Positions 34,442 through 53,870 of a stretch of DNA of 64,000 nucleotides are shown one piece after another. The stretch is from the NCBI RefSeq assembly GCF_000378225.1, contig NZ_KB905141.1, forward strand, positions 1-64,000, in the 5' to 3' direction. The stretch comes from Methylophilus methylotrophus DSM 46235 = ATCC 53528 (GTDB lineage Bacteria > Pseudomonadota > Gammaproteobacteria > Burkholderiales > Methylophilaceae). The number at the start of each line of letters is the position of its first letter. Position 1 is the first letter of the stretch. The notes below the pieces were generated by a model. That model ran no database searches, had not been told where the DNA came from, and saw only the letters and a list, made by a program, of their open reading frames with translations. Position numbers and translations under genes: made by a program.

Positions 34442-34448
34442 AATTCTG

Positions 34449-34576: not shown

Positions 34577-34581
34577 GATAT

Positions 34582-34657: not shown

Positions 34658-34726
34658 TATTCCTCTTTAAACACCAATGCTATGCAAAGCTGATCAGGTG
34701 TTAGAATACAAAACTTGTCAGACTTC

Positions 34727-36850: not shown

Positions 36851-39800
36851 ATGAAACACTCGCCAGGCCATTTGCAATCCGCCGCTGCCGCAACTGCGCA
36901 GGATTGCAGCCATTGGATGCAAGCGCTGATGCAAGCCTGGAAAGAGGGCGAGTGGGTGCAGTGCCTGACGCTGGCGCAAAAGATTACGCGTGAGTTTCCT
37001 GAAGAAGGCCTGGCCTGGAAGTTACTGGGCAGCCTGTATCAACAACAAGATCATTTAACGGCAGCCGCTGAGGCTTTTTTGCAGGCAAGCAAGTACCTGA
37101 AAAAGGATGCCGAAGTCCTTTATAACCTGGCCAATGTCTATGCACAACTGCAAGACGATGCACAAGCCATCAAATATTATCGCCAGACACTCAAGTTAAA
37201 CCCCGCTTTCAGCCAGGCCTATGCTAACTGGGCTAGCGTGCTGAAACAGACCGGGAAGTTGAAAGAGGCAGAAAAAGTGTTGCGCCGCGGCCTGAATATT
37301 CATCAGCAGGATGGCCGTGTCAATTTTGAACTGGCGACCTTGCTGCATGAAGCAGAAAAGCCATTGGAAGCAATTCAATATTATCGTGAAGCGGTGGAGA
37401 TTGAACCCGATAATGCCGTCATCTTTTTCAATATGGCGGTGGCCCTGGAGCAATTGGGCAATACCACAGAAGCGATTGATGCTTTTCAGCAGACAATAGC
37501 TCTCCAACGCGACTATGTACAGGCTTATAGCCATCTGGGTGCGCTGTATTTGCAACATGGTGATACAGAAGAAGCTGAACAGTGGTTATTGGCTGGCCTG
37601 GCATTGGATCCTGCCGAGTTATCATTATTGAAAAACCTGGCCAAACTTTATCGCGCAACCCACCGCATGCGGGAATACCAGGCTTATATTGACCAGATCA
37701 TGCTGAAACAGGATTTCAGTGCTGAGGCACTCAATAACCTGGCCACTGAAATGTTCAACCAGCATTTATATGCTGAGGCTGAAGCTTATTGCCACAAAGC
37801 GTTGCAAGCTGATCCAGATAACCCTTATGTACAAGCCAACCTGGGCCTGATTGAGAATGCCAGGAATGCCTTCGACAAAGCTTGCCAGTACTTTGAAAAA
37901 GCCCTGGAGCAGTTGCCGGACTCTGAGAGTGTATTGAGTAATTATGGCATCAGCCTGCGTATGCTGGGCCGCTACACAGAAGCGATTGCTAAACTAGAAC
38001 AAGCCTTGCAGATTCATCCTGAATTTATGGCGGGTTACATCAACCTGGCCAATGTTTACCTGGATATGGGGCAGATTGAGACCACCATCCGTACCCTGCA
38101 AAAAGCACTCCTCATCGAACCTGGCCATATGATGGCACTTAGAAACCTGCTGTTTGCCAACAGTTACAGCAATACCTTGCCGCTCAATGAGAGCCTGGAT
38201 TACGCCCATAGACTCGGCGCGGCCATGATGAAGGAAGTGACGCCTTATGATAGCTGGCACGTCCATGCCCAGGAGCAACGCATCCGTATTGGCCTGGTTT
38301 CTGCCGATTTACGTAAACACCCTGTTGGCTATTTCCTGCACCAGTGGTTGCAGACATTTGATGCCAGCCGACTGGAGATTTATGGATATTCCACAGATGG
38401 TCGTGAAGATGCGTTCTCGCACGAACTCAAAGACTTATGTAACCAGTGGCGTTCGCTGGCTGGCCTGACCGATGTCCAGGCAGCCAAGCACATCCGTGAA
38501 GACGGTATCCATATCCTGCTGGATTTGTCTGGTTTATCTGGTGGTACACGGTTGCCTATTTTTGCCTATAAACCTGCCCCGGTACAGGCGACATGGCTGG
38601 GATACTGGGGGACAACTGGTTTGCCGGTCATGGACTATGTGATTGCCGATCCAGTCAGTATCAATGCCGAGGTAGCCAAACAATTTACCGAGCAGGTGGT
38701 GCACCTGCCACACACACGCATGTGTTTCACTGCGCCGCCGTTTGAGATTGAAGTGAGTCCCTTACCAGCACTGAGTACCGGTGCCGTCAGCTTTGGTTGT
38801 TTTCAGAACTACAGCAAAGTCAGCGATGAGGTATTGGCCTGCTGGGGCGAAATCCTGCAAGCACTGCCCAACGCCCGATTGTTTTGGCAAACCAAGGCTT
38901 TCAGCGATCAATTGATCTGCGAACAGGCCCTGGCAAGATTGGCAAAATATGGCATTGCAGCCACACGCTGCACCTTGTACGGGATGGTGGCAAGGGAAGA
39001 ATACTTGCGTAATCATCACCAAATTGATGTGATCCTGGATACATTCCCGTTTACGGGCGGTACGACCACCTGCGAAGCGTTGTGGATGGGTGTGCCTACC
39101 GTGACTTTATCAGGTGATACCTTGATTGCCCGCCAAGGCGCCAGTTTCATGCATTGTGCCGGTTTGCCGGATTGGATTGCCAACACACGTGAAGAATATG
39201 TGCACAAGGCGATTACTTTCGCCAGTGATCTGGATGCCTTGTCCTTACTACGGGCACAGTTGCGCGCACAGGTGTTGGCCTCACCATTAATGAATGCACA
39301 ACAGTTTGCGCAGGATTTTGAGCAATTACTGTTTGACCTGTGGCAACAGGTGCTGCCTACCTTAAAGCCACAGCAATTGTTGGCAAAGGCACCAGTGCAT
39401 GAAGCTTTTTCCGGCAGTGAGCTCGTCTGGGTGGTCAGTGCCACACGCATGACAGAAGCCGATTTCTGGTGTGATTCTGCCTTGGGCCGTTCACTCAAGC
39501 GCCATATGCAGCAGGATAAGCGCCTGGTGCCAGTGGTTGCCTATGAAAATACCCGCGGCTTATCCGAAGTGTTTAATGAAGCCATCGCAGCTGCGCCAGA
39601 GAATGCACTGCTGGTCTTGATCCACGACGATGTCTGGCTTGATGAAAATACTTTTGTACACACCATACAACGTGGGCTCACACACTATGATGTGATCGGT
39701 GTGGCTGGTAACGCACGCATACAACCTGGCCAGCCTGGCTGGTGCTTTATTGATTTGCAGTTTACCTGGGACGATGCCAAATACCTGCGCGGTGCAGTCA

Positions 39801-42800
39801 GCCATGGCATGCACGCGTTTGGGCCGTCTTCCAGTTATGGCGATGCTGCTGGGGAATGTCAGCTCATGGACGGTGTGTTCCTTGCGGCGCACAAGAAAAC
39901 ACTATTAGAAAGTGGCGTACGGTTTGATCCCCAATTCGAATTTCATTTCTATGATCTGGATTTTTGCCGTACGGCTACCCGTGCCGGTTTGAAGCTCGGT
40001 GTGTGGCCTGTGCGTATGACCCACCAAAGTGGCGGCGCGTTTGGTAGCGCACGCTGGCGTGAAACTTACCTGAGCTATCGTCAAAAATGGGAGCCTGTAC
40101 AGGTTGAGCAACCGGCTTCTAGCGCCTTGCAAGACTCCATGGCAGAAGTGTTCGACTTGGCCTCAGCCGCACAGCAACAGGGGGATTTAAATACAGCCAG
40201 ACAGCTTTACCAGGAAATTCTGGCGGTGGATGCCCAGCATGCGCTAGCGATGCATAACCTGGGCCTGATTGAATGGCATACAGGCCAGCAGACACAAGCT
40301 ATTGCACACTTTGCCCAAGCATATGCTCTGGCGCCTGCACAATGGCAATTGTTGAGCAGCTATCTCACAGCCTTACACGCTACTCATGAACAGCATGCGC
40401 TGCAGCAAGTCGTGGTACAAGCCATGCGGAATGGCCAGCATGTGCAAGCATTGCAAGCCCTGATGCAGGAGTGGCAGATCGCTCTGCCGGAAGCTGCAAC
40501 AAACACACAACCTTCAAACCAGCAACAAGAGGCGGTGCTCAAGCTGTTTGAACAACAGGATTACGCACAGATGGAGCAAGTCTTGCAGGCTTTGCTGCAA
40601 GAGTATCCTGCATGGCTTGGTGGCTGGAAAATGCTGGCTGATGTGCTGATGATCCAGAAAAAGGATGCGCGTGACGCCGCGGCACAAGCACTGTTGCTGA
40701 ATGCCGGGGATGCAGAGGAGCATTGCTATTATGGCCTGGTGCTCAAAGCGCAGAATGATCTTGCAGCTGCAGCTGAAGCTTTCAGAAATGCCATCCAGCT
40801 TAAGCCTGACTATGCAGCGGCCTATAACAATTTGGGTATTGTGCTCAAAGATCTTGGTGAAGTCGAACAAGCGATGCGGCAATTCAAGCAGGCTTTGTTG
40901 ATGAAGCCTGAGTATGCGGACTGTTTCAGTAACCTGCTATTTTGCATGACCCATGCTGAAAGCGTAGATATTGCCGCCTTGCAGCAAGCACATGCCGCCT
41001 ATGCCGAGTTATACGAAGCCCCTTTGAAAGCACATTGGCAGCCACACGCCAATTCGCGGGATGCGCAACGTCCATTGCGTGTAGGATTTGTCTCTGCAGA
41101 TTTACGGGCACACTCAGTGGCGCATTTCCTGCTGCCTTTACTGCCGACACTGGCACAAGATAACACACTGGTATTGTTTGCTTACGCCAATTACACGCTC
41201 GAAGATGAATTCACAGCCGAGATGCGGCCTTATTTTAAACAGTGGCGCGTCGTTGCAGATTTATCTGATGAAGCGCTGGCAGACTGCATCCGTGCAGATG
41301 GCATTGATATCCTGATTGATTTGTCTGGCCATACGTCAGGCAACCGTTTACTTACTTTTGCCAGAAAACCGGCACCTGTACAGGCCAGCTGGCTGGGTTA
41401 CCTCAATAGTACAGGCCTGACCGCTATCGATTATTACCTGGCCGATAGCGCCTTGTTGCCGCCTGGTCAGTTTGATCAGCAGTTCAGCGAGAAGCTGGTA
41501 CAGCTGCCAGTGAATGCGCCCTTTGAGCCGCATCCGCAAGCACCGGCAGTGAATGACTTGCCTGCATTAACTAATGGATATTTAACCTTTGGTTGCTTTA
41601 ACCGTCCGAACAAAATTACCCGCAGCGCGGTTCAGCATTGGGCCACATTGATGCAAGCTTATCCTGGTAGCCGCATGGTGCTGGGCGGCATGGGGGAAGC
41701 GGACAGTTATCTACATCTGCAAGACTGGTTTGCGCAGGCAGGGATTACGTCAGACCGCTTGTCGTTTTACCCACGCACAGACATGGTGAGTTATCTGCAG
41801 CAATACCACCTTGTGGATGTCTGCCTGGATACATTCCCTTCCAATGGCGTGACTACAACCGCGCATGCCTTATGGATGGGCGTACCAACCCTATGCGTGG
41901 CGGGTGACCGTCTGGCCAGCCGGGGTGCCATGGCCCTGATGCAGCATCTGGGTTTAAAGGACTGGGTGGCCGACCAGCCGCAGCAACTGCTGCAACAAGC
42001 ACACCATGTACTTTCTGATTTACAGGCGTTGGCAGCCTTGCGTGCAGCGCTACGCACACGCTTTGCCGATTCGCCGGTGGCAAAACCTGGCCCGTTGGCG
42101 CGCGCATTATCACAAGCGCTACGCCATATGTGGCAAGCCTGGTGCCAAGGCCAAGCGGCTACCCCATTTGCAATTTCTTTGAACTCTCCTGTCACAACAG
42201 TGACTGAAACCCCTGATAAAGGTCATTCTATGAACACAACACTCAACCAAGCGCCTCCAGCAAACGCACTACAGGATTCTATTGCAGAGGTATTTACACT
42301 GGCAGTTCAAATGCAGGAGAAAGGCGAGTTTGCACAGGCGATGGGCTTGTATCAGGAAATTTTGCGCATTGATGCCAAGCATGCGGCGACCTATTTCCAG
42401 CTGGGCCTGCTGGCGCAGCAGTCAGGCAAGGCAGAGGAAACCCTGCCTTTGCTTGAACAGGCCGTGATCCTGGCGCCACAACAGCCTGCTTACTGGCGTG
42501 CTTATGTTGAAGTGTTATCGCTGACCGCCCCTAACAATGAAGTGCTGGATGTGATCACTTTTGCCCGCCAGAATGGCCTGGCTGCCGCCGAAGCTGATGC
42601 CTTGCAACAACAGTATAGCCAGCAAGCTGAAGCGGCAACGGCGGTCCGCAAAGGCCCTTATATTTACCGTGCAGAAGATAATTTCTACCAACGTGCGCAG
42701 ACAGAGTCGTTTGGTTACCAGGATGTAGGCAATGCCGAACAGCGCCTGTATGACATGATCCGCCAGTCTCGCGACAAGAGCGTATTCTCTACTGAATTGT

Positions 42801-44332
42801 CAGCCAAAGCGACGGATTGGCCGAGTTACTATCATTTGACGTCACAGCGTGCCAACCTGTTACGCCCGTTTGCTGACAAGATTGCCAACGGAAAGGTGCT
42901 CGAACTGGGTGCCGGTTGCGGTGCGATTACGCGCTTCCTGGGGGAGCTGGGTGGAGAGGTGGTTGCGCTGGAAGGAAGCCCGAATCGTGCCCGTGTCATT
43001 GGTCAGCGTTGTGCAGATCTCAACAATGTGACCATTTATTCTGACCTGATCCAGTCATTTGAAACCGACGAGAAATTTGATGTGGTGACGTTGATCGGCG
43101 TGCTTGAATATGCCCAGGTGTATGTCAAAGAGGCAGATCCTTTGCGCTTCCTGCTTCAAACAGCAAAGTCTTTCCTGAAGGAAGACGGCATGCTGATTGT
43201 CGCGATTGAGAACCAGCTGGGCCTGAAGTATTTCTGCGGCGCACCAGAAGACCATATGGGGCAGGCCATGTATGGTATCAATGATTCTTACAGCACCACC
43301 AGCCCGATTACCTTTGGCCGCGTGGAGCTGGATGCATTGATCCGCAGTGCCGGTTTTGAAACCACTGAATTGTATGTGCCGTTGCCTGACTACAAAACCC
43401 CGGTCAGCGTGATTTACCCTGAAGGTTTTAACCAGGCACACCGTGAGGCTGGCTGGGATGTCGGTGCTTTGGCAGCAGGCTCTGTGGTGCATGACAGGCA
43501 ATCCCCACGCCATCCTACGTTTTCACTGGAAAATGCCTGGCAGGTGATTGCGCGAAATAATCTGGTGGAAGATGTGGCCAACTCATTTATGTTTGTGGCT
43601 TACCCGCAACGCCAGAGTGGCAAATTACACCCTGATATTTTGGCAGCCCATTACGGCAGCCAGCGCCAGGCAGTGTTTAGCAAGGAAACCCAGTTTGTGC
43701 ATGATGGGCAGGGTGTGGTGACACGCACACGTAATACCGGCGACACTGCACAACTGTTGCAGGCCGCCTGGGAGCAGGCGCCTTATCATGGTGGACAGCT
43801 GTGGATGGATAAATTGACACAGCTCATGAATCGTCCTGGCTGGCGTGTAGAAGACCTGGCCGCTTGGGCTTCGCCTTGGCTGAAAGGCCTGGAAGCTGCC
43901 ACCCTCACTGCTGGCAAAACCTTGCCTGAGTTTGCGGGGTATTCAGCGTTATTGCCTTCGCAGTATTTTGATGCCACACCGACTAACTTTGTCATGGACA
44001 AGAGCGGGCAGGGACATTTCTTTGACCTGGAGTGGGATTTTGCGATTCCTTTGCCTGTGGCATTTGTGGCATTGCGTGGTTTGTTCCTCACCTTGCATCG
44101 CGTTCGCAGTTGTGCCAAACCACATGCCAGCACGCCAAGCAATATTGGCAGCCTGACGCTGGCGGTGCTGGAACTCAATGGCTACCACTATAGGGATGAC
44201 CAGTTGCAGGCCTTTATCAGCGTGTTTAACCGCCTGCAAAATATGACGCAAGGTGCCCCTGAGCATCAGGTGAATGGTTTAACCGCCGAGTTTACGCGTG
44301 CAGAGTTGCCTGTACGTCAATTGTTTACTTAA
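36851..44332 (+). CDS. Giant TPR protein with two GT41, one GT2-like and one methyltransferase domain
   Basis: 2,493 residues, one unbroken frame. Order: many TPRs (about 30-450); GT41 domain 1 (about 477-836; IGLVSADLRKHPVGYF, LDTFPFTGGTTTCEALWMGVP); GT2/StrF-like domain (about 857-1080; LIHDDVWLD, MDGVFLA); TPRs; GT41 domain 2 (about 1406-1766; VGFVSADLRAHSVAHF, LDTFPSNGVTTTAHALWMGVP); a short TPR block; a class I methyltransferase domain with VLELGAGCGAITRFLG near 2014, and a ~400-residue end. GT41 enzymes (O-GlcNAc transferase, SPINDLY) transfer sugars to Ser/Thr of proteins in the cytoplasm. The block starting SALQDSMAEVF/NALQDSIAEVF recurs, showing internal duplication. Upstream of the phosphonate operon and flagellin, so flagellin is a likely acceptor, by inference. 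Confidence 0.85.
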   Translation: MKHSPGHLQSAAAATAQDCSHWMQALMQAWKEGEWVQCLTLAQKITREFPEEGLAWKLLGSLYQQQDHLTAAAEAFLQASKYLKKDAEVLYNLANVYAQLQDDAQAIKYYRQTLKLNPAFSQAYANWASVLKQTGKLKEAEKVLRRGLNIHQQDGRVNFELATLLHEAEKPLEAIQYYREAVEIEPDNAVIFFNMAVALEQLGNTTEAIDAFQQTIALQRDYVQAYSHLGALYLQHGDTEEAEQWLLAGLALDPAELSLLKNLAKLYRATHRMREYQAYIDQIMLKQDFSAEALNNLATEMFNQHLYAEAEAYCHKALQADPDNPYVQANLGLIENARNAFDKACQYFEKALEQLPDSESVLSNYGISLRMLGRYTEAIAKLEQALQIHPEFMAGYINLANVYLDMGQIETTIRTLQKALLIEPGHMMALRNLLFANSYSNTLPLNESLDYAHRLGAAMMKEVTPYDSWHVHAQEQRIRIGLVSADLRKHPVGYFLHQWLQTFDASRLEIYGYSTDGREDAFSHELKDLCNQWRSLAGLTDVQAAKHIREDGIHILLDLSGLSGGTRLPIFAYKPAPVQATWLGYWGTTGLPVMDYVIADPVSINAEVAKQFTEQVVHLPHTRMCFTAPPFEIEVSPLPALSTGAVSFGCFQNYSKVSDEVLACWGEILQALPNARLFWQTKAFSDQLICEQALARLAKYGIAATRCTLYGMVAREEYLRNHHQIDVILDTFPFTGGTTTCEALWMGVPTVTLSGDTLIARQGASFMHCAGLPDWIANTREEYVHKAITFASDLDALSLLRAQLRAQVLASPLMNAQQFAQDFEQLLFDLWQQVLPTLKPQQLLAKAPVHEAFSGSELVWVVSATRMTEADFWCDSALGRSLKRHMQQDKRLVPVVAYENTRGLSEVFNEAIAAAPENALLVLIHDDVWLDENTFVHTIQRGLTHYDVIGVAGNARIQPGQPGWCFIDLQFTWDDAKYLRGAVSHGMHAFGPSSSYGDAAGECQLMDGVFLAAHKKTLLESGVRFDPQFEFHFYDLDFCRTATRAGLKLGVWPVRMTHQSGGAFGSARWRETYLSYRQKWEPVQVEQPASSALQDSMAEVFDLASAAQQQGDLNTARQLYQEILAVDAQHALAMHNLGLIEWHTGQQTQAIAHFAQAYALAPAQWQLLSSYLTALHATHEQHALQQVVVQAMRNGQHVQALQALMQEWQIALPEAATNTQPSNQQQEAVLKLFEQQDYAQMEQVLQALLQEYPAWLGGWKMLADVLMIQKKDARDAAAQALLLNAGDAEEHCYYGLVLKAQNDLAAAAEAFRNAIQLKPDYAAAYNNLGIVLKDLGEVEQAMRQFKQALLMKPEYADCFSNLLFCMTHAESVDIAALQQAHAAYAELYEAPLKAHWQPHANSRDAQRPLRVGFVSADLRAHSVAHFLLPLLPTLAQDNTLVLFAYANYTLEDEFTAEMRPYFKQWRVVADLSDEALADCIRADGIDILIDLSGHTSGNRLLTFARKPAPVQASWLGYLNSTGLTAIDYYLADSALLPPGQFDQQFSEKLVQLPVNAPFEPHPQAPAVNDLPALTNGYLTFGCFNRPNKITRSAVQHWATLMQAYPGSRMVLGGMGEADSYLHLQDWFAQAGITSDRLSFYPRTDMVSYLQQYHLVDVCLDTFPSNGVTTTAHALWMGVPTLCVAGDRLASRGAMALMQHLGLKDWVADQPQQLLQQAHHVLSDLQALAALRAALRTRFADSPVAKPGPLARALSQALRHMWQAWCQGQAATPFAISLNSPVTTVTETPDKGHSMNTTLNQAPPANALQDSIAEVFTLAVQMQEKGEFAQAMGLYQEILRIDAKHAATYFQLGLLAQQSGKAEETLPLLEQAVILAPQQPAYWRAYVEVLSLTAPNNEVLDVITFARQNGLAAAEADALQQQYSQQAEAATAVRKGPYIYRAEDNFYQRAQTESFGYQDVGNAEQRLYDMIRQSRDKSVFSTELSAKATDWPSYYHLTSQRANLLRPFADKIANGKVLELGAGCGAITRFLGELGGEVVALEGSPNRARVIGQRCADLNNVTIYSDLIQSFETDEKFDVVTLIGVLEYAQVYVKEADPLRFLLQTAKSFLKEDGMLIVAIENQLGLKYFCGAPEDHMGQAMYGINDSYSTTSPITFGRVELDALIRSAGFETTELYVPLPDYKTPVSVIYPEGFNQAHREAGWDVGALAAGSVVHDRQSPRHPTFSLENAWQVIARNNLVEDVANSFMFVAYPQRQSGKLHPDILAAHYGSQRQAVFSKETQFVHDGQGVVTRTRNTGDTAQLLQAAWEQAPYHGGQLWMDKLTQLMNRPGWRVEDLAAWASPWLKGLEAATLTAGKTLPEFAGYSALLPSQYFDATPTNFVMDKSGQGHFFDLEWDFAIPLPVAFVALRGLFLTLHRVRSCAKPHASTPSNIGSLTLAVLELNGYHYRDDQLQAFISVFNRLQNMTQGAPEHQVNGLTAEFTRAELPVRQLFT

Positions 44333-44350
44333 TCCTGACCAACATTGATA

Positions 44351-44383
44351 AAAAGCATGCGCAGTGATGTGCATGCTTTTTTT
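44351..44383 (+). terminator. Terminator after giant glycosyltransferase
   Basis: A 10-bp stem AAAAGCATGC/GCATGCTTTT (44351-44360, 44371-44380) with a 10-base loop and trailing T. Confidence 0.85.
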
Positions 44384-44410
44384 GTATAGAAATCAGAACG
44401 CAAGACCATA

Positions 44411-44437
44411 AAAAATCCGGCACGAGGCCGGATTTTT
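44411..44437 (-). terminator. Terminator of the phosphonate operon
   Basis: A 10-bp stem AAAAATCCGG/CCGGATTTTT (44411-44420, 44428-44437). It is symmetrical, so on the minus strand it has a T-run and ends the operon 18 bp after its last stop codon; it could also act on the plus strand. Confidence 0.85.
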
Positions 44438-44454
44438 TAATGAGTGATGTCAGC

Positions 44455-45846
44455 CTAAAACATGGTTTCCATGCAACGGCGGATATGCGGGATAGAGCCG
44501 CCCGGATTAGGCGTATATTTACTGAGCTTGGCCAGGGTAGCTAATGCTTTGTCTGCCTTTTGTTGCAGGCAGTAGACTTCGGTCAGGTTGCTTAAGGGAA
44601 TAGCAGGATTCTCTTGTGCCAGTAATACCGCTTTTTCGAGTAGCAGTTCAGCATCTTCCAGTTGCCCTTGATTTACCAGCAGGGTGCCCAGGTCGTTATA
44701 TGGTTCCCAGCAGCAGCTATCTTTCTTGATCAATTCCAGCATCAACTGGGTCGATAACTTCAAATCACCTTCTGCAGCCAATTTTTCGGCATGCTGGTAG
44801 GTGATGCGGTCGATATCGACTTGCGCCTTGATAGCTGGCGTCGGTAATTCAGTTTCACCAGACAAGGCTGCTTCGATATTATCTGCAATCAAGGTGGCAC
44901 TTTGTCCTAAATGGGCAAACTGGTGCTGTTTATTGAAGGCGATTTGCTGCTGGTACTCCGCAGAGTGCTGCAGCACGTGTTCTACGGTTTTGCGCAAGTC
45001 TGCTCTCACTGTTTTAATCACGTAATCATAGGGCACACTGGCGTGGCGCGGTGGGTTGGTATCCGGGATCAGCCAGTCGGTCACGGCAATGCCCGGCACA
45101 TCCAGTAGCAAGGCTTCGGTCAGTACGCTGGACTCATCCGAGACCATCACATCGGCCAGGCCCAAGCAGTACATGATGCTGATTTCACGGTCTATCACAT
45201 ACACGTTGTCTGCGCAGTTTCTGTGCAAGGCATCCATCTCGTCAATATTGTTTAATACCCAGCGGTATTTTTCTGACCAGGGGGCCTGTTTTAGCAATAG
45301 GTTGACCGGTAGGTCCTTCAGGCTTTGCACAAACTCGTCCTGCTTGCCGTGGTTTTCCCATGAAGGGGCATAGAGGATGGAATGCTCGTATTTGAGCCCC
45401 AGTTGTTCGCGCAATTTCTGTGCTTCCTGCTTGAATGTCTCCTGGTTACGGTACACCAGGTCTGCTTTGGGCCAGCCCAGATCAAACATCCCCAGCTTGG
45501 GACGTGCTTGGTTGAAGTTGGCTTGTGTTTGCCAACGCTCTACCCAGGCTGGTCCTGGCAAGATACCCATGTCAAAGGCGGTCCAGGGTTCGTAATGCCA
45601 GAAGTGTGGCCAGATATCGTGACGCTGCGCCAGGTCATGCAGTAACACGACTGAGAAACCGGCGTTGGGTTTACAGGCGTGCTCGCAATACACACCGACT
45701 TCGGCATATTGCTTGGAGTCCATGCTCCATTGTACCGGGTAACCGCGGTTGGCTATTTCATCGGCCACAGGCGCTAATGCCTGGCGCTCACAATTGTCGG
45801 TATAAAAGAAGGTGAACACGGGACGACGTGAATTTGTATTCGTCAT
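44455..45846 (-). CDS. CDP-glycerol phosphotransferase-like protein with C-terminal TPRs
   Basis: 463 residues. About 1-330 match the TagB/TagF type of CDP-alcohol transferase: ILYAPSWENHGK near 155 and VSDESSVLTEALLLDVPG near 240. The last ~110 residues hold TPR-like helices (CWEPYNDLGTLLVNQGQLEDAE). Known relatives transfer glycerol phosphate from CDP-glycerol to wall or capsule polymers. Here the upstream genes are expected to make CMP-aminoethylphosphonate rather than CDP-glycerol, so this may be the transferase that places phosphonate, with release of CMP, on a glycan. That is inference. It is the last gene of the operon, 6 bp after the methyltransferase. Confidence 0.75.
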   Translation of the reverse strand: MTNTNSRRPVFTFFYTDNCERQALAPVADEIANRGYPVQWSMDSKQYAEVGVYCEHACKPNAGFSVVLLHDLAQRHDIWPHFWHYEPWTAFDMGILPGPAWVERWQTQANFNQARPKLGMFDLGWPKADLVYRNQETFKQEAQKLREQLGLKYEHSILYAPSWENHGKQDEFVQSLKDLPVNLLLKQAPWSEKYRWVLNNIDEMDALHRNCADNVYVIDREISIMYCLGLADVMVSDESSVLTEALLLDVPGIAVTDWLIPDTNPPRHASVPYDYVIKTVRADLRKTVEHVLQHSAEYQQQIAFNKQHQFAHLGQSATLIADNIEAALSGETELPTPAIKAQVDIDRITYQHAEKLAAEGDLKLSTQLMLELIKKDSCCWEPYNDLGTLLVNQGQLEDAELLLEKAVLLAQENPAIPLSNLTEVYCLQQKADKALATLAKLSKYTPNPGGSIPHIRRCMETMF

Positions 45847-45852
45847 GATGGT

Positions 45853-46551
45853 TTATCCATGCAAGCGTTTTGAGAAAATGACACTGAAACGATATTGGCT
45901 TTGTGCATAATTAGGCACGCAGCTTTCAAATACTTGGTGAGGTTTGCCAGGCAATTGATTGGCAAACCAGTCAGGGCTGTAATAGGTATGGTGCAAGCCG
46001 CGGTATTTTTCTTCATATTCCGCCTCGCTCAGTGCATCGCGGCGGGCACGTTCACATTCTTCTTTAGTCGCGGCATGTGGGATATCCAGTATGGCAACGC
46101 CAACCTTGGCTTTTTGCCACATGGCATGGAACACTTCGGCGGCCATCGCTTCGTCAAAATAATGAAATACGCTATTGGCGATGACAAAATCGTATTTAGG
46201 ATCGATGGCCATGGTTTGTGCCGATTGTGCACTGAAGTCGCCATCCGGCATGGCTTGTTGAGCCGCTTCAATCAATCCGGCTGCATAATCCAGCCCGCCT
46301 ACTTTAAGGGGATATTGCTGACGCAAAGCATATAAAAATGCACCGGCACCGCAACCGACCTCAAAGACAGAATCACCGGACTGCATGCCCAGTTTTTCGC
46401 TGATGCGGCGGGTGTATTCCTGCCAGTCAGGCAGGGCGATTTTGCCTGCACCGCTATCAAAGCCGTCCAGTGCAATCAGCGTATCCAGCGTGATGGCATG
46501 TTGCGGTTGCAAGCTGCGTTTTTCCCAAATGTTTTGCCAAAGGTTACTCAT
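45853..46551 (-). CDS. Class I SAM-dependent methyltransferase
   Basis: 232 residues. VFEVGCGAGAFLYAL near residue 62 is the S-adenosylmethionine motif I, with GLDYAAG after it and NSVFHYF as motif IV. The C-terminal part is more variable (YYSPDWFANQLPG). The substrate is not evident. In this operon the N of aminoethylphosphonate, a nucleotide-bound form of it, or a sugar would make sense. The start overlaps the previous gene's stop by four bases (ATGA). Confidence 0.8.
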   Translation of the reverse strand: MSNLWQNIWEKRSLQPQHAITLDTLIALDGFDSGAGKIALPDWQEYTRRISEKLGMQSGDSVFEVGCGAGAFLYALRQQYPLKVGGLDYAAGLIEAAQQAMPDGDFSAQSAQTMAIDPKYDFVIANSVFHYFDEAMAAEVFHAMWQKAKVGVAILDIPHAATKEECERARRDALSEAEYEEKYRGLHHTYYSPDWFANQLPGKPHQVFESCVPNYAQSQYRFSVIFSKRLHG

Positions 46552-46961
46552 GAGTTCGCTTCCATTTTTTGACTGACTGCCTTGAGCACGCGGGCACGCA
46601 GCTGCGTGCTGCTGATGCCCTCGGTTCTCGGCAGGATATGTAATTTGTCGGCTGCAATCGGGTTGCTGTTATCGTGACCGTGTACCAGTAAATCAATCTG
46701 GTGCAACGCTAAAAAAGCATCGTCTAGCAGCCATGGGCTGGGCACCACTTCGTCCACATCACGCATGGCCAACAGTACTTCTGCGCGCGCAGCATAATTG
46801 AGTTCGGGCTCGTATCCCTTTTTACTACGAATCTCTTCATCGGTGGTCAGGGCGACCACCACATGACCCAATTTCTTGGCGGCTTTTAAGAGGCGCACAT
46901 GGCCATGGTGGATCAGTGTGGCTGACATATCGACCATAATGCGTTTTTGTGGTGACGTCAT
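46548..46961 (-). CDS. Cytidylyltransferase, PntC/TagD-like
   Basis: 137 residues, the full length of small cytidylyltransferases. It carries HHGH (HxGH motif, residues 18-21) and RTEGISST (about 112-119), the two CTP-binding signatures. TagD-type enzymes activate glycerol-3-phosphate; PntC-type enzymes activate 2-aminoethylphosphonate to CMP-AEP. Placed directly after the phosphonate aminotransferase with a four-base overlap, the PntC role is the better fit. Confidence 0.82.
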   Translation of the reverse strand: MTSPQKRIMVDMSATLIHHGHVRLLKAAKKLGHVVVALTTDEEIRSKKGYEPELNYAARAEVLLAMRDVDEVVPSPWLLDDAFLALHQIDLLVHGHDNSNPIAADKLHILPRTEGISSTQLRARVLKAVSQKMEANS

Positions 46962-47947
46962 GGCTGTAACTCCAGTAAATCAAGAATTTCGCCGCGTGCC
47001 TGGCTGCCCAGGTGTGCCTCTCCCAAATGACAGACCACGCTACCACGGCTGATGCCGCGAGGTTGGTATAGCACTGCACGTGCATCCTGGCTGGTTACCT
47101 TGGCATCGACCCAGGTACATAAGGTGGGTTGGTAGTGCATTGGATGCGTGGCATAAGATACAATCTTTTTCAGCATCCTGGCCTTGTTGATAAACACAGC
47201 CTCGCGTAAATCAGCATGTTTAGGTAGCACCTCATATAAAGAGGCGATGGCGTGGTAGGGACCCGTCATGCGCCGATCGAGGTGTGTGGCCAGGCTGAGG
47301 TAAAACGAATCGATTTCGTTTTTAGGTAATTGGTTAAAAGCAATAAATGAGGCGCCTGTCAGGCCAAATAGCCCTTTGCAAGAACTGTAGGCAATGACCT
47401 CTGCCAACCCGTGATCAGATTCCAGACCGATAGAGGCAGTCGCGTCCAGCATTAACTGGGCCCTCACACGGTCTGCCAGGGCGCGCAAATCGCCTATGGG
47501 TAACAATAATCCGGCACTGGTTTCTGTATAGCAAGCCACTACCCAGTCGTAGTTGCCACTGATGGTGGTGATTTCTTGCCAGTCACAGACCGTTACAGAT
47601 GACACCTGGCCGACATGACGCTGTGCCATTTGTGCAAAGCTGACCAGGCGCTGTGCGTAATAGCCGCTGTCTACAACCAATACCTTGCCATACAGAAAGT
47701 TAAGGCTGGCAATTTCAAGCGCCAGGCTGGCAGAACCTTGCAAACGCGCAATTTGGGCGTGGCCGGTCATGGTTTTCAATGCTGAGAGCACAGCCTCATC
47801 TACCTGGCTGTAATCCTGGTCACCACGGCCAAAACAGGGCCGCAGACCGAGCAGGTTTTCCTCCAGCAAACTGGCTGGCCCCGCTGTGAACAGCGCTTTG
47901 CGTGCATTTTGCGAATAGACATGGCTATGAATGGTGACTTCAGGCAT
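46958..47947 (-). CDS. Phosphonate-pathway aminotransferase (2-aminoethylphosphonate-forming, PhnW-like)
   Basis: 329 residues of PLP fold type I, class V. The LFTAGPASLLEENLLG opening is that of the PhnW/serine-glyoxylate aminotransferase group, and SSCKGLFGLTGA near residue 150 contains the candidate PLP Lys. It should convert phosphonoacetaldehyde to 2-aminoethylphosphonate, using an amino donor. It is shorter than classic PhnW (about 365). Starts 8 bp inside the end of the decarboxylase gene. Confidence 0.82.
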   Translation of the reverse strand: MPEVTIHSHVYSQNARKALFTAGPASLLEENLLGLRPCFGRGDQDYSQVDEAVLSALKTMTGHAQIARLQGSASLALEIASLNFLYGKVLVVDSGYYAQRLVSFAQMAQRHVGQVSSVTVCDWQEITTISGNYDWVVACYTETSAGLLLPIGDLRALADRVRAQLMLDATASIGLESDHGLAEVIAYSSCKGLFGLTGASFIAFNQLPKNEIDSFYLSLATHLDRRMTGPYHAIASLYEVLPKHADLREAVFINKARMLKKIVSYATHPMHYQPTLCTWVDAKVTSQDARAVLYQPRGISRGSVVCHLGEAHLGSQARGEILDLLELQP

Positions 47948-49115
47948 ATTCCACCTCGTTTAAAAACTGCATGAAGTCTTGTTTGTTTTGTGTTGGGGTG
48001 CGCGTTGGACGGCCCAAATCTGCACGTGCGCCTTTACGGCACAGCACTTCTATAAAGCTGCTTTTTCCACTGTGCACTGCCTGTTGCAAGACAGTTTTTA
48101 GATCTTCTGTCCTAGAAACACTGAAAACCTGTGCATAACCCGCAGCACTGGCAATCTCAGCCAATGGTAATTGTGCGGCGATGGTAGGCTGTCCACCGAC
48201 GGAATCATGGGCACCATTGTTTAATACGATATGCAGCAGATTAGATTGCTGTGCACTGATGGTCAGGCTGCCCATATGCATGAGCATAGCGCCATCGCCA
48301 TCAATACAAATGACTTGTCGGTCTGGCTGCGCCAGGGCAATGCCGCAGGCAATCTGTGAAGCATGCCCCATGCCGCCTACCGTGAGGAAGTCACGGCTAT
48401 GTCCGGCCTGCTGGGATTTACGGTATTCAAATAGCTCACGTGAGGCCATGCCGGTGGTGGCTACCACTGCCGCCTCTGCTGGTAATGCCGACACAATCTG
48501 CTGGATCATGTGTTCGCGGCTTTCCAGTGTAGGCAATTTGTCAGCCAGTGTGGCGACCGTTTCAGGTTTTGTTTCTGCTTTTTTGTAGGGCGCAAAGCTC
48601 TGTTTGCGTACCACCAGGGCAACCGGGCCTTGACGCTCAATCGCCTGATTCAATAATGCCTGAATTTGTGCATGGGCAGTCTGGATATCGCTGGTCATGA
48701 CCTGGTATGGAATATCCATGACGTCCAGCTGAGACAGCGTGATCTGGCCTTGTTTGACATGCTGGGGTTCGTCGTGGATCTGCTGGCCATGCTCATCGAG
48801 TTCGCCACGCCAGCCGATGACCAGTAACATAGGAATACCGTAGACTTGTGGATCTGCCAATGACGCAATCGGATTAACGATATTGCCGAGGCCGGAATTT
48901 TGCATATAGACCAAGGCTGGTTGTCTGGTTGCGAGGTATTGACCGATGGCTAACCCGATGGCGCCACCTTCATTGGCTGCGATCACATGCTGGCCTGCGG
49001 CCAGTTTGTCTGAAAAGCAGGCGCATAGCTCTTTGAGTAACGAGTCAGGGACGCCTGCAAAGAACTGCACCTGTTCGGCTTGCAACGCGCTTAAAAAGTC
49101 CTCGGCATGTATCAT
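47940..49115 (-). CDS. Phosphonopyruvate decarboxylase
   Basis: 391 residues, thiamine-diphosphate dependent. GVPDSLLKELC near 20, NEGGAIGLAIG near 45 with the cofactor-activating Glu, QNSGLGNIVNP near 72, and GDGAMLMHMG...NNGAHDSVGG for the Mg-diphosphate site (about 274-312) follow the pattern of phosphonopyruvate and sulfopyruvate decarboxylases. It makes phosphonoacetaldehyde, pulling the unfavourable PEP mutase reaction forward. 26 bp after the PEP mutase gene. Confidence 0.92.
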   Translation of the reverse strand: MIHAEDFLSALQAEQVQFFAGVPDSLLKELCACFSDKLAAGQHVIAANEGGAIGLAIGQYLATRQPALVYMQNSGLGNIVNPIASLADPQVYGIPMLLVIGWRGELDEHGQQIHDEPQHVKQGQITLSQLDVMDIPYQVMTSDIQTAHAQIQALLNQAIERQGPVALVVRKQSFAPYKKAETKPETVATLADKLPTLESREHMIQQIVSALPAEAAVVATTGMASRELFEYRKSQQAGHSRDFLTVGGMGHASQIACGIALAQPDRQVICIDGDGAMLMHMGSLTISAQQSNLLHIVLNNGAHDSVGGQPTIAAQLPLAEIASAAGYAQVFSVSRTEDLKTVLQQAVHSGKSSFIEVLCRKGARADLGRPTRTPTQNKQDFMQFLNEVEYA

Positions 49116-49141
49116 GTTGGTCTCCGCTTATTTGGTGACGC

Positions 49142-50440
49142 CTATTTAGTGCCTGGGATCAGTTCCAGTACATCGTTAATCGACATCAGGCTGGACTCAA
49201 TTTCTGCGGTCCTGCCGTTTTTAAGGATTTCCATGGCCGCATTTTGCATGGCCGGATAGGCCGCACGCATCATGTGGTTGGCATAAATGACCAGATTGAA
49301 ACCGCGCAAGGCCAGTTCTTCTTCCGTCACGGTGTTGTAACTGGTGGGCACACACACTAAAGGTGTCGTTGGGAACTCTGATTTGAAAATCTTGGCGAAT
49401 TCAAAGACTTCGTCTGGCGTTTTCTGGCGGCTGTGAATCATGATGCCGTCTACACCCGCACCGACGTAGGCTTGTGCGCGTTGCACGGCATCGGCAATGC
49501 CTTTTTCCAGAATCAGGCTCTCGATACGCGCAATCACCATAAAATCATCGCTGACGCGTGCAGCGCGCCCAGCAGCGATTTTTTCGCAGAAAGGCTCGAT
49601 CTCGTCCTGCAATTGCGGTACTTCATTACCAAACAATGAATTCTTTTTGAGGCCGATCTTGTCTTCGATGATGGTGGCAGAAATACCCAGGCGTTCCATG
49701 CTGCGCACATTGAGTTCAAAATGCTCCAGTTTGCCGCCGGTATCGGCGTCCATAATTAAAGGTTTGGTGGTGACATCAAAGATGTCATTGATATTGGATA
49801 AGCGGCTATTGATCTCGACCGCTTCAATATCAGGTTTGCCACGCGCGGTAGAGTCTGTGAGTGAACTGGACCAGAACCCGTCAAACTGGCAGGTTTTGCC
49901 ATTGCGTTGTGCGGTGACGTGTTCGGCAATCAATGCCGAGATCGGGTTATGCGCTTCAATAAAGCGTGAAAGCGGTTTAACCGTCAGCAAACGTTTCAAG
50001 GTGCGGCGGCGGATATCCGGTGTGGTACCGAGGGCCTGGATCTGGCTCAGCATTTCATTGGAAGACACACCGCGTGTATAAGGAATCTCAATCAGGTGGC
50101 CGCCGTATTCCGCCAGCGCTGCACGGGCGCGGTCACGGTAGGGGACTAATGGCCCTTCCAGCCAGTCGTCGCCATGCACCATGATGTCAGGTTTGTATTT
50201 AAGCAGGTTGGGGGCGTAATCCCATTCTTCCTGTGGCACGACATTCACCACACCGCGGATATTGCTGACGATCTGTTTGCGCTGTTCGTAGGTCAGGTAG
50301 GGCAGGCGTTTATGATCTGCCACCGCTGCGTCTGACAATAGGCCAATGGTCACGTCGCCATACTTCCTCGCCTGCTCAATAATATTGATATGGCCATGGT
50401 GCAGAATATCTACGGTCATACCTACATAAACGGATGCCAT
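49142..50440 (-). CDS. pepM: Cytidylyltransferase-PEP mutase fusion
   Basis: 432 residues from the ATG at 50440, chosen for AAGGAG six bases before it. Residues 1-140 are a cytidylyltransferase domain with HHGH (about 14-17) and YTRGVSSNEM (about 123-132). Residues ~160-432 are PEP mutase, with DADTGG and the diagnostic EDKIGLKKNS (about 258-267) that marks mutases rather than lyases. PEP mutase forms the C-P bond, phosphoenolpyruvate to phosphonopyruvate, and is the marker of phosphonate synthesis. It is the first gene of the operon. Such fusions are known in other bacteria. Confidence 0.95.
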   Translation of the reverse strand: MASVYVGMTVDILHHGHINIIEQARKYGDVTIGLLSDAAVADHKRLPYLTYEQRKQIVSNIRGVVNVVPQEEWDYAPNLLKYKPDIMVHGDDWLEGPLVPYRDRARAALAEYGGHLIEIPYTRGVSSNEMLSQIQALGTTPDIRRRTLKRLLTVKPLSRFIEAHNPISALIAEHVTAQRNGKTCQFDGFWSSSLTDSTARGKPDIEAVEINSRLSNINDIFDVTTKPLIMDADTGGKLEHFELNVRSMERLGISATIIEDKIGLKKNSLFGNEVPQLQDEIEPFCEKIAAGRAARVSDDFMVIARIESLILEKGIADAVQRAQAYVGAGVDGIMIHSRQKTPDEVFEFAKIFKSEFPTTPLVCVPTSYNTVTEEELALRGFNLVIYANHMMRAAYPAMQNAAMEILKNGRTAEIESSLMSINDVLELIPGTK

Positions 50441-50941
50441 GCAAAACTCCTTCATAATCTTTGCTACCTAAATATAAAGGCATATATAAGGTATGCGAAA
50501 TGGATAGCCTGATTATGGATGGCTTTGTTGTGGAATGATTTGTAGATAAGCGCGGAAAAGGGGCCTTAAATCTTATGAGAGATGGGTGGCATGAATGCTT
50601 GTTGGCTAAGGGTGTCTTTAAAAGCCGAATTAAGACTGATTCTCTGTTTAGCTCGGTTAATAGTGATGGCGTTTCTTTTTATAGAATGCATTGGTATTAA
50701 CAATTTTGTGCAGTTTTTGATTAAAGGCTAAAGATTTTGGTGGAGGGGTCGTAAATAGTTTCAAGTGCATGATTGATCGAAAAAGAAATTTGCAACAAGT
50801 ATTAAAGAAATTTCGCAAGCGGTCGATAACACAACTAACAACGCTAGATAGCAAACATTAAGTGGTAAATAGCGATCAACGTTGAAAGTAACATGACGAT
50901 TTGACACTTAACTGGATATACGACTCTAAAGGAGATTTAAC
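50441..50941. other. 501-bp divergent intergenic region, pepM and fliC
   Basis: Separates the divergently read pepM and flagellin genes. It contains the sigma-28 promoter of fliC, a ~110-base fliC leader ending in AAAGGAG, and must hold the promoter of the phosphonate operon, for which I see no clear consensus. A minus-strand frame at 50657-50854 does not look coding. Confidence 0.6.
50803..50829 (+). promoter_or_regulatory. Sigma-28 (FliA) promoter of fliC
   Basis: TAAAGAAA (50803-50810), exactly 11 bases, then GTCGATAA (50822-50829), one mismatch from the sigma-28 -10 consensus GCCGATAA. Late flagellar genes are read from such promoters after hook completion. The leader is about 105 bases. 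Confidence 0.85.
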
Positions 50942-51739
50942 ATGGCTTCAGTAATTAACACCAACCTGGCTTCATTGAACGCACAACGTAACCTGACTGC
51001 TAACCAGTCAAGCCTGAATACTTCTATTCAACGCTTGTCTTCTGGTCTGCGTATTAACAGCGCTAAAGACGACGCGGCTGGTATGGCGATTGCAACCCGT
51101 ATGGACTCACAAGTTCGCGGTATGGAAGTTGCAACACGTAACGCAAACGACGCGATTTCTTTCCTGCAAACTGCAGAAGGTGGTTTGGCAAGTGCAACCG
51201 ATGCATTGCAACGTATGCGTGAACTGGCTGTACAGGCTGCTAACGGTTCCTACAGTTCAGGTGACCGTGCAAACCTGAATACAGAATTCTCACAACTGAA
51301 GTCAGAACTGACTCGTTTGGGTACAGCAACCAAATTTAACGGCCAGGCAGCCTTTGGTACAGGTTATAGCTTCCAGATTGGTGCTGACAGCGGGGATACC
51401 ATCAGCGTGGCTTCTGTTGCAGCGGCTTCCCTCAGTGGTTCCTTGTCTACAGCATCAGCAGCTTCAGCCGCAATTACTGCGATTGACGCACAGTTGACAA
51501 CTTTGAACACTAACCGTGCGACTTTGGGTGCTTACCAGAACCGTTTCGCTTCCGTAGTGAACAACCTGGGTGTGGCTGGTGAGAACATGGCAGCTGCCAA
51601 GTCCCGTATCACTGACGCTGACTTTGCTGCAGAAACCGCCAAGATGACACGTGCACAGATTCTGCAACAAGCTGGTACTGCGATGTTGGCACAAGCGAAC
51701 CAGTTACCTAACAACGTGATGTCATTACTGAGAGGTTAA
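50942..51739 (+). CDS. fliC: Flagellin
   Basis: 265 residues, unusually compact: the conserved N-terminal D0/D1 (MASVINTNLASLNAQRNL, LSSGLRINSAKDDAAGMAIA) and C-terminal D1/D0 (AAKSRITDADFAAETAKMT, ending VMSLLRG) with only a short centre and no D2/D3. The middle (about residues 150-182) is rich in Ser, Thr and Ala, offering candidate O-glycosylation sites. It polymerises into the flagellar filament. AAAGGAG precedes the ATG. Confidence 0.97.
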   Translation: MASVINTNLASLNAQRNLTANQSSLNTSIQRLSSGLRINSAKDDAAGMAIATRMDSQVRGMEVATRNANDAISFLQTAEGGLASATDALQRMRELAVQAANGSYSSGDRANLNTEFSQLKSELTRLGTATKFNGQAAFGTGYSFQIGADSGDTISVASVAAASLSGSLSTASAASAAITAIDAQLTTLNTNRATLGAYQNRFASVVNNLGVAGENMAAAKSRITDADFAAETAKMTRAQILQQAGTAMLAQANQLPNNVMSLLRG

Positions 51740-51811: not shown

Positions 51812-52156
51812 ATGAGTGATTCAACAGTCAGTGGTGTCGGTGGTGGTTTACAGGGAATCCGGGCAACCAGCAGTTTGAAGCTGGTTAAATATGCTGAGGC
51901 TTCCTCTGAAGGCGCTGCCGTAGATGTGAATGATAAAGCTGCACTGAGTGGTGCAGTGAAGAAGTTAAATGAGTATGTAGCCCCGGCGTTACAAACGATA
52001 GAGTTTTCTATCGATGAGGATACCGACCGTATCATTGTGAAAGTGGTGGATACCGAAACACAACAGGTATTGCGCCAGATTCCCAATGAAGAAGTGTTGG
52101 CTATCAGTAAAACGCTGGATAAATTACGTGGGCTGGTGGTGAGACAAACAGCCTGA
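51812..52156 (+). CDS. flaG: Flagellar protein FlaG
   Basis: 114 residues. The C-terminal half has the FlaG pattern LQTIEFSIDEDTDRIIVKVVD followed by VLRQIPNEEVL. FlaG affects filament length in several bacteria. AAAGGAG is near the start. It lies between fliC and fliD as is usual. Confidence 0.88.
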   Translation: MSDSTVSGVGGGLQGIRATSSLKLVKYAEASSEGAAVDVNDKAALSGAVKKLNEYVAPALQTIEFSIDEDTDRIIVKVVDTETQQVLRQIPNEEVLAISKTLDKLRGLVVRQTA

Positions 52157-52190
52157 TATCGCGTTTAAATAAAAGGTTGGGAGATTAAAA

Positions 52191-53870
52191 ATGGCATCAA
52201 TTGTATCCTCTACAGGCGCATCTGGCCTGCCGATTGATTCGTTGGTCACAGCTCAAATGCAGATTGAGCAGCAGCCTCTCACCGCTATTAAAACCAAGAT
52301 ATCCTCTTACAACACCAAACTCTCCGCTTACAGTACGCTTAAAAGCGGATTAAGTACTTTTCAGACTGCGGTAGACAAGTTAGCCACAGCAGCTAAATTC
52401 AATGCCCAGACAGTGACTGCCTCTGATAGCAATACCATCAGTGCGACTGCTGATGGGACTGCAGTCAAGGGCAGCTATAATGTGAGCGTCACGCAATTGG
52501 CGACCTCGCAGAAGCTTGCATCTGCCGCTTACAGTAGCACCACAGACATTATCGGTACAGGAAAGCTGACGATCTCTTTTGGCACCTACACCGCCGCAGA
52601 CGGCGGTACGCCAGCCTCATTCACAGCCAATGGCAGCAAATCCGATATCGAGATTGACATCACTTCCAGCAACAATACGCTGGCAGGGATACGCGATGCG
52701 ATTAATGCCAAAAATGCTTCTGTCACCGCTTCCATCGTCAATGATGGCAGTGGCAACCGCCTGGTGATTACCTCCAAGGATACCGGGGAGGTCAATAGCC
52801 TGAAGATTTCGGTGACGGATAATGATGGTAATAATACCGATAGCAACGGCCTGTCTGCTTTGGCCTATGATCCGCTTGCCACCAGCAATAACATGACCCA
52901 GCTGGTCGCGGCAAAGAATGCATTGCTTACTGTAGACGGCTTGAACATCAGCAAGTCAAGCAATACCATTTCTGATGTCATCCAGGGCGTGACTCTGACC
53001 TTGAAAGGTGTCACATCCACGGCTAATGCACTGAGCGTCGATACAGATACGACGACGATACAGAGTTCGGTACAGAGTTTCGTAGATGCCTATAATTCGC
53101 TGAATACCAGCATGCGTAACCTCACCAAGTTTGTGTCGGCAGGTTCGAGCGCCAATGGCGTGTTACTCGGCGACTCTACCGCACGCAATATGATGGTGAA
53201 GCTTAAGTCCATGCTATCTGCCTCCTCGCCCACAGCGACGACTTATAAAACCTTGTCGGATATCGGGGTGAGTATGGGCTCGGATGGCTCATTATCGCTA
53301 GACAGTACCAAATTACAAAAAGCTATCACCAATAATGTGAGTGACGTGGCCAAGCTGTTTTCACCGTCTGCTACGACGACTGACCCACAGGTCACGTTTA
53401 TGGGCAGTAAAGCCGCTACGCAGTCAGGCACCTATGCGGTCAACATCACACAGCTAGGTGGAAATGGCGTCAACGCGATCGGTACCATTAATGGTGTGAC
53501 GGCGAATACCACTGGGTCGGTGCTGACAGGCGCGGGCGGAAATGCCAGCTATGGCTTGCAAATCAGTGTGACAGGCACAGCGACAGGTAGCCGCGGCACA
53601 ATTACGTTCAGCAAAGGCCTGGCAGGTGAGCTCAGCAGCGTATTGGGAGAGTGGCTGAAATCTGATGGTCCATTGACCACAAAAACAGACGGATTGAACT
53701 CTTCGATTAAAGATTTGAATAAAAAGGCCGATGATATTAATGCCAAGCTGCCTTCTATTGAAGCACGTTACCGCGCCCAGTATGCAAAGCTGGATGCCCT
53801 GCTCAGTAGTTTGCAAACCACAAGTACTAACCTGACTTCACAACTGGCTGCCATCGGCGCCAACAGTTAG
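52191..53870 (+). CDS. fliD: Flagellar filament cap FliD
   Basis: 559 residues. The N-terminal D0 region (GLPIDSLVTAQMQIEQQPL) and the repeated Thr/Ser-rich central domains (SVTQLATSQKLAS, TTTIQSSVQSFVDAYNSLN) and C-terminal coiled segment are typical of FliD. It caps the filament and folds incoming flagellin. It is secreted through the flagellar export system. GGGAG before the ATG. Confidence 0.93.
   Translation: MASIVSSTGASGLPIDSLVTAQMQIEQQPLTAIKTKISSYNTKLSAYSTLKSGLSTFQTAVDKLATAAKFNAQTVTASDSNTISATADGTAVKGSYNVSVTQLATSQKLASAAYSSTTDIIGTGKLTISFGTYTAADGGTPASFTANGSKSDIEIDITSSNNTLAGIRDAINAKNASVTASIVNDGSGNRLVITSKDTGEVNSLKISVTDNDGNNTDSNGLSALAYDPLATSNNMTQLVAAKNALLTVDGLNISKSSNTISDVIQGVTLTLKGVTSTANALSVDTDTTTIQSSVQSFVDAYNSLNTSMRNLTKFVSAGSSANGVLLGDSTARNMMVKLKSMLSASSPTATTYKTLSDIGVSMGSDGSLSLDSTKLQKAITNNVSDVAKLFSPSATTTDPQVTFMGSKAATQSGTYAVNITQLGGNGVNAIGTINGVTANTTGSVLTGAGGNASYGLQISVTGTATGSRGTITFSKGLAGELSSVLGEWLKSDGPLTTKTDGLNSSIKDLNKKADDINAKLPSIEARYRAQYAKLDALLSSLQTTSTNLTSQLAAIGANS

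Follow-up and report, generated by a model that had tools for sequence, protein, structure and literature searches.

The first 64,000 nucleotides of contig NZ_KB905141.1 of Methylophilus methylotrophus DSM 46235 (the window) contain the flagellin gene fliC together with a phosphonate operon and a giant glycosyltransferase gene. Open reading frames confirm the layout given in a first-pass annotation, which placed the operon between the other two: the giant gene occupies 36851-44332 (+), the operon 44455-50455 (-), and fliC 50942-51739 (+). Giant gene and operon stand tail to tail, as described there, with a gap of 122 rather than 123 bases; pepM and fliC are divergent, and 486 bases separate their first ATG codons (the 501 previously given would result from an internal ATG located 15 bases deeper). 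The six genes of the operon, all on the minus strand, overlap their neighbors or leave gaps of 6 to 26 bases and run from a cytidylyltransferase-phosphoenolpyruvate mutase fusion (CyTase-PepM) through phosphonopyruvate decarboxylase (Ppd), a pyridoxal phosphate (PLP) transaminase, a second CyTase, and a methyltransferase to a TagF-like protein with a tail of tetratricopeptide repeats (TPRs). Downstream of fliC lie flaG, fliD, and fliS. The features are as follows (AEP, 2-aminoethylphosphonate; GT, glycosyltransferase family; SAM, S-adenosylmethionine; CMP, cytidine monophosphate):

36851..44332, plus strand: giant protein of 2493 aa, TPR-GT41-GT2-like-TPR-GT41-TPR-methyltransferase with an unnamed C-terminal domain (Pfam)
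38258-39316, plus strand: first GT41 domain of the giant (Pfam, GT41 stretches)
About 39401-40240, plus strand: GT2-like part of the giant, judged from the Methylotenera homologue (57% identical there; PF13712)
40934-42076, plus strand: second GT41 domain of the giant (Pfam, GT41 stretches)
About 42653-44329, plus strand: methyltransferase of the giant with the unnamed C-terminal domain (Pfam)
44455..45846, minus strand: TagF-like phosphotransferase with C-terminal TPR tail, 463 aa, proposed CMP-phosphonate transferase (PF04464, TPR_19)
45853..46551, minus strand: SAM methyltransferase, 232 aa, proposed to N-methylate AEP (Methyltransf_25)
46548..46961, minus strand: second CyTase, 137 aa (PF01467; HHGH and TEGISS motifs)
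46958..47947, minus strand: PLP transaminase, 329 aa, proposed to convert phosphonoacetaldehyde to AEP (TIGR03301 best match; PhnW-type enzymes in PDB)
47940..49115, minus strand: Ppd, 391 aa (TIGR03297)
49142..50455, minus strand: CyTase-PepM fusion, 437 aa (TIGR02320; EDKIGLKKNS and HHGH motifs)
50803-50829, plus strand: sigma-28-like promoter box TAAAGAAA-N11-GTCGATAA before fliC, kept in 11/11 aligned Methylophilus intergenic regions
50942..51739, plus strand: flagellin FliC, 265 aa, proposed acceptor (PF00669, PF00700)
51812..53870, plus strand: flaG and fliD, as context (profile matches)

The proximity of pepM to fliC extends well beyond this genome. Among 187 Methylophilaceae genomes, PepM occurs above its cut-off in 15 (11 Methylophilus, 3 Methylotenera, and the genome G045), and in each of the 11 Methylophilus genomes 928-965 bp separate the PepM match from that of FliC. 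The first-pass annotation had suggested searching the family for co-occurrence of pepM, GT41, and fliC; pepM is within 10 kb of the flagellin match in 13 of the 14 pepM-positive Methylophilaceae that have one. The TagF-like protein is found in 17/187 genomes of the family and in 13/22 of the genus; in G076 and G079 a short contig stops before reaching pepM and fliC, and in G143 the tail is all that is left. For a base rate, a sample of 370 genomes of the class yielded 31 further genomes with a strong PepM match (29 above cut-off); 16 of these have a flagellin match, and none of the 16 has the two linked within 10 kb on the same contig. In just four (G578, G665, G766, and G794) do pepM and the flagellin match share a contig, with 96 kb to 1.5 Mb between them; the remaining 12 have them on separate contigs, in some cases with pepM close to where the contig starts, and links may have been missed as a result. 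Fisher's test on 13/14 versus 0/16 gives 1.2e-7, a figure that carries no weight in the argument because related genomes are not independent. In a 300-genome sample of the order, the TagF-like protein was found in the Methylophilus source genome alone (E up to 1e-20), and no relative of it was present in the viral contigs or plasmids searched. The linkage of pepM to flagellin is real and beyond chance, being shared across the genus and recurring in fliC-linked versions in Methylotenera and Andreprevotia.

These versions differ in arrangement. In two of the three pepM-positive Methylotenera, the cassette is upstream of fliC (pepM-flagellin distances of 8.1 kb in G145 and 7.2 kb in G146), with a gene order unlike that of Methylophilus. 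The loci L033 and L034 read, on one strand, GT41-GT2-GT41, CyTase-PepM, Ppd, transaminase, CyTase, methyltransferase, TagF-like, giant-type methyltransferase, and fliC-flaG-fliD; the Methylophilus giant thus corresponds to two genes (GT41-GT2-GT41 and methyltransferase) that flank the cassette there. In L034 fliC is also preceded by an extra 334-aa gene that belongs to no known family, and a 334/335-aa gene without a Pfam match adjoins the methyltransferase gene in two Methylotenera islands (L034:12371-13375 and L032:12767-13774). In another Methylotenera genome, G143 (L035:7896-14320), the cassette has decayed to fragments of the second CyTase and of the TagF tail, between flanking GT41-GT2-GT41 and methyltransferase genes that are intact. 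Andreprevotia sp. IGB-42 (L070), of the order Neisseriales, has PepM fused to a MobA-like transferase, followed by Ppd, a transaminase, a second MobA-like transferase, and a methyltransferase (50% identical). Next come the gene for a 2061-aa protein, which joins TagF (60%), giant-type methyltransferase (38%), RgpF, and GT2 parts, and then a 539-aa flagellin, flaG, and fliD. The Andreprevotia genome holds three more flagellin-domain matches, and it is the only one of 43 genomes of its family with a TagF relative. The genome G045 has a distinct pepM cluster (L037; CyTase-PepM 63%, with a 491-aa CyTase-transaminase frame); this genome, 48% complete, is without a flagellin match.

The gene content of the Methylophilus operon and the family membership of most of its enzymes are established. 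PepM scores 409.1 bits against a TIGR02320 cut-off of 319.55 and shows the EDKxxxxxNS motif as EDKIGLKKNS at residue 264; Ppd scores 482.7 bits against 312.5 for TIGR03297. The N-terminal part of the fusion matches PDB 5x3d, which we take to be the CyTase domain of Fom1, and both CyTases of the operon have PF01467 domains and HxGH motifs. Another member of the PepM/isocitrate-lyase superfamily, at 6939-7817 of the window, reaches 117.7 bits, under the PepM cut-off; it is probably a methylisocitrate lyase, and the family has many PepM matches as strong as this one. The TagF-like protein belongs to the CDP-glycerol phosphotransferase superfamily (PF04464, 29.6 versus 22.1 bits), is the only PF04464 match in the genome, and has as its best non-TPR match in PDB the TagF-like polymerase Cps3D; its predicted model has pLDDT under 50 across most of residues 141-285. 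The small methyltransferase has a plant phosphoethanolamine N-methyltransferase in third place among its PDB matches (E 3e-05). Phosphoethanolamine resembles AEP, and the match hints at activity on AEP; it is a hint only because the two better matches are other methyltransferases.

The giant protein belongs to GT41 (PF13844, 355.1 bits versus a cut-off of 25, in four stretches). Its first GT41 domain matches solved GT41 structures (best E 1e-73), with 5djs (titled simply as a TPR protein) and SPINDLY at much the same level and human OGT a weaker match. The predicted model of the methyltransferase part (mean pLDDT 76.3, pTM 0.78) retrieves general SAM methyltransferases in a fold search. Phosphoethanolamine methyltransferase accounts for 8 among the 50 fold matches listed, at 13-17% identity, which is no more than a weak hint. 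The last 250 residues (43580-44329) are without a Pfam match at E values up to 1; their conserved stretches, D-A-T-P-T-N and F-F-D-L-E-W, presumably bear a faint resemblance to a sugar- or choline-kinase loop.

FliC gives the stronger of two PF00669 matches genome-wide; the other, at 69059-69475, is much weaker and, by our judgement, FlgL-like. The sigma-28 promoter reported before fliC stands, its box being kept in 11/11 Methylophilus loci. The box likewise precedes fliC in L044, a relative without pepM there, and is therefore evidence for fliC and not for the operon. A weaker sigma-28-like box is found at 50729-50755, 74 bases before the main one, and its -35 part is also kept in 11/11 loci.

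Phosphonate on flagellin has a precedent. The claim that no phosphonate-modified flagellin had been described was wrong: 2-AEP on the N-acetylglucosamine (GlcNAc) of Clostridioides difficile FliC was demonstrated by mass spectrometry in 2022 (PMC8861647). The likeness is 2-AEP on a flagellin sugar, measured there and predicted here from genes. In C. difficile, however, this glycan is a minor variant and the genome is negative for pepM, the authors leaving the source of AEP open, whereas Methylophilus has a full pepM operon beside fliC (PMC8861647). What is already known, then, is 2-AEP on flagellin with no biosynthetic locus, and what appears new is a pepM operon tied to a flagellin gene; among the titles and abstract openings listed from an open-access collection we found no paper linking a pepM locus to flagellin modification, most subscription journals being outside the search.

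Among the closest known systems are the type A locus of C. difficile (CD0240-CD0244) and the b-type locus of Pseudomonas aeruginosa (PA1088-PA1091), which also lie beside fliC and share with the island the glycosyltransferase, cytidylyltransferase-type, methyltransferase, and phosphotransferase classes (PMC10714395, PMC11833859, PMC4441256). In the revised type A model, GlcNAc is placed on FliC by a glycosyltransferase, CDP-threonine is made by a nucleotidyltransferase, CD0244 moves phosphothreonine to GlcNAc, and methylation by a methyltransferase follows (PMC10714395); the P. aeruginosa b-type plan matches it (PMC11833859). Unlike type A loci, the island has PepM, Ppd, and a transaminase in place of the phosphothreonine step, GT41 instead of GT2, and TPR stretches. 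Its fliC-side glycosyltransferase, CyTase, methyltransferase, and phosphotransferase agree with type A at the level of domain class, and no CD0241-type phosphothreonine-forming gene was found among the scanned operon genes; we therefore do not count it as a type A member, and call it type A-like in its working and set apart by gene content.

Other systems share further parts. The operon holds the gene set expected of a phosphonyl tailoring (Pnt) pathway, namely PepM, Ppd, a nucleotidyltransferase, and a surface transferase gene (TagF-like, not LicD-like), and Pnt pathways likewise have a CyTase fused to PepM and a second CyTase nearby (PMC6697681). They differ in using LicC-type PntC and LicD-like transferases or glycosyltransferases, where Methylophilus has PF01467-type CyTases and a TagF-like transferase, and flagella go unmentioned in that paper (0 occurrences); formation of CMP-AEP was shown there for phosphonate cytidylyltransferases of another family in other bacteria (PMC6697681). 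Flagellin glycosylation islands of Enterobacteriaceae also have GT41 proteins with methyltransferase domains, but phosphonate genes are not mentioned in that paper (0 occurrences of 'phosphon'; PMC4875605). FlmG of Caulobacter is, like the giant, a TPR and GT-B protein; its TPR part binds flagellin, and glycosylation is cytoplasmic and precedes export, but the sugar is pseudaminic acid and no phosphonate is involved (PMC7591256). In Prochlorococcus, phosphonate was recovered in the protein fraction and a protein-linked phosphonate glycan was proposed, but with lipid-linked assembly (PglC/Wzx/PglL-type genes) and not on flagellin (PMC8931226).

We consider it likely that the island makes AEP or its N-methyl form, activates it with CMP, and transfers it onto a GT41-attached sugar of FliC, following type A logic with phosphonate replacing phosphothreonine. 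The substrates, acceptor, and sugar in this scheme, like the methylation and the step order, are those that we infer from sequence. PepM would convert phosphoenolpyruvate to phosphonopyruvate, Ppd would convert this to phosphonoacetaldehyde, and the PLP enzyme would form AEP, which is probably N-methylated by the methyltransferase. One of the two CyTases would then turn N-methyl-AEP into CMP-phosphonate. The GT41 domains of the giant would place a sugar on Ser/Thr of FliC, the TagF-like protein would move phosphonate from CMP-phosphonate to that sugar, and the TPRs of both proteins may hold the flagellin; modification would take place in the cytoplasm, ahead of export. The phosphonate-bearing flagellin glycan proposed in the first pass thus survives as the best reading, supported by the comparative linkage, and loses its claim to novelty and one of its clues, a Ser/Thr-rich FliC centre.

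Several observations weigh against this reading. The 11 Methylophilus genomes inherited a single arrangement and do not count as 11 events, and the third Methylotenera genome (G141) has 28.8 kb between cassette and fliC. The proportion of Ser/Thr in the FliC centre, rejected as a marker of pepM carriers, is 0.27-0.32 in eight flagellins from pepM genomes and 0.27-0.31 in six from genomes without pepM. Control by sigma-28 was likewise rejected for both operon and giant gene, as no conserved box precedes pepM or the giant gene among the best eight sites per locus (20 sources scanned). The PLP transaminase falls below the AEP transaminase cut-off (TIGR03301 PhnW-AepZ, 63.8 versus 360.8 bits), so the label rests on resemblance and context; it is also below the PF00266 cut-off (16.7 versus 21.5 bits), its PDB matches are PhnW-type enzymes (best E 2e-10), and it resembles the PhnW/AepZ family without being filed in it. 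The genome has a second GT41 gene, a 594-aa frame remote from fliC (contig 232570-233616). Finally, a Pseudomonadota metagenome-assembled genome (L071) and Candidatus Accumulibacter contiguus (L072) share PepM, Ppd, and MobA-like transferases (the separate MobA-like protein having been scanned in L071 alone), with a TagF relative and a methyltransferase of the giant type, next to glycosyltransferases, and the TPR tail is absent from the TagF relatives of both and from that of Andreprevotia. The latter is fliC-linked, so the tail tracks GT41, not flagellin as such.

The L071 and L072 loci support the strongest alternative, that the operon decorates an envelope glycan (surface polysaccharide, lipopolysaccharide, or lipid) and lies beside fliC by accident. 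Their TagF relatives are 52-56% identical and their relatives of the giant's methyltransferase 33-46%; WbsX is nearby, as are genes resembling an ABC-2 polysaccharide exporter (read from sequence, not Pfam), and the flagellin-domain genes of these genomes are elsewhere. In L071, an apparent methyltransferase-TagF fusion was rejected, the two matches being in different frames; in L072, the relative of the giant's methyltransferase is split across two frames (11068-12511). The capsule of Bacteroides fragilis, moreover, carries AEP (PMC8861647). We nonetheless regard an envelope target as unlikely, given that Pfam finds no exporter, polymerase, or flippase among the scanned island proteins (36851-50455) and that the fliC linkage recurs under different gene orders. 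The polysaccharide-like setting of the L071 and L072 relatives does imply that the chemistry of the cassette is one of general surface tailoring, with flagellin one likely destination.

A second alternative is that two systems share the site, the giant glycosylating flagellin and the operon serving some other target. Giant and operon are on opposite strands in Methylophilus, and GT41 can adjoin fliC without pepM: in 20 hand-picked fliC loci, all without PepM above cut-off and drawn from the 83 flagellin-matching genomes, GT41 genes are beside fliC in five (L038, L044, L047, L048, and L049) and absent from the other 15 fetched stretches, one of which (from G061) mirrors that of G060 but stops before the site. 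Such a split is improbable, more so than an envelope target: Methylotenera carries the GT41 gene, the cassette, and the methyltransferase gene one after another on a single strand, and the giant-type methyltransferase, which adjoins TagF without GT41 in L071 and L072, forms a fusion with TagF in Andreprevotia and with GT41 in Methylophilus. That the operon makes a diffusible, antibiotic-like natural product, as the Fom1-like fusion and its 5x3d match might suggest, is very improbable, since no additional tailoring or export gene is among the operon genes scanned and such fusions occur widely (of 1485 Ppm proteins, 23.6% are joined to a PF01467 domain; PMC6697681).

The same comparison loci make the fliC-side locus look like a flagellin-decoration island with exchangeable parts. 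A DegT aminotransferase is encoded in L038 and L047, accompanied by FdtA and a formyltransferase in L038 and by an acetyltransferase in L047. L049 (G108, Methylotenera; 2-9312) lacks pepM and holds FdtA, a DegT aminotransferase, a GT61-PF04464 protein, an asparagine-synthase-like protein, and a cytidylyltransferase; it is perhaps a cassette for another CDP-activated group for flagellin at the same site, and its combination of PF04464 and cytidylyltransferase without pepM means that the activated group is seemingly exchangeable. The two Methylophilus loci L038 and L039 (G060 and G061) have three fliC copies with a DegT aminotransferase beside or among them, and L038 also has FdtA, formyltransferase-ankyrin, and 2-oxoglutarate-oxygenase genes near these copies (Pfam was run on L038 genes only). 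Upstream of the M. methylotrophus island, four tRNA genes (Gly, Cys, Gly, and Leu) lie at 34366-34813, perhaps marking an edge of the exchangeable stretch.

Returning to phosphonate transfer onto flagellin, a fuller version of that proposal, which we hold to be evenly balanced between true and false, is a dedicated and self-contained flagellum-phosphonylation route, in which the cell makes a carbon-phosphorus compound for attachment to flagellin. Transfer would pass directly, in the cytosol, from CMP-phosphonate to a protein-bound sugar, with the TPR/GT41 giant as the bench, and the route would have been assembled beside flagellin at least twice (in Methylophilaceae and in Andreprevotia) with different nucleotidyl- and glycosyltransferases and swapped with other sugar cassettes. 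If this is true, a main flagellin with an adjoining complete pepM operon would make protein phosphonylation genetically testable, type A logic would be widened from phosphothreonine to carbon-phosphorus compounds, and a destination would have been found for the phosphonate of methylotrophs.

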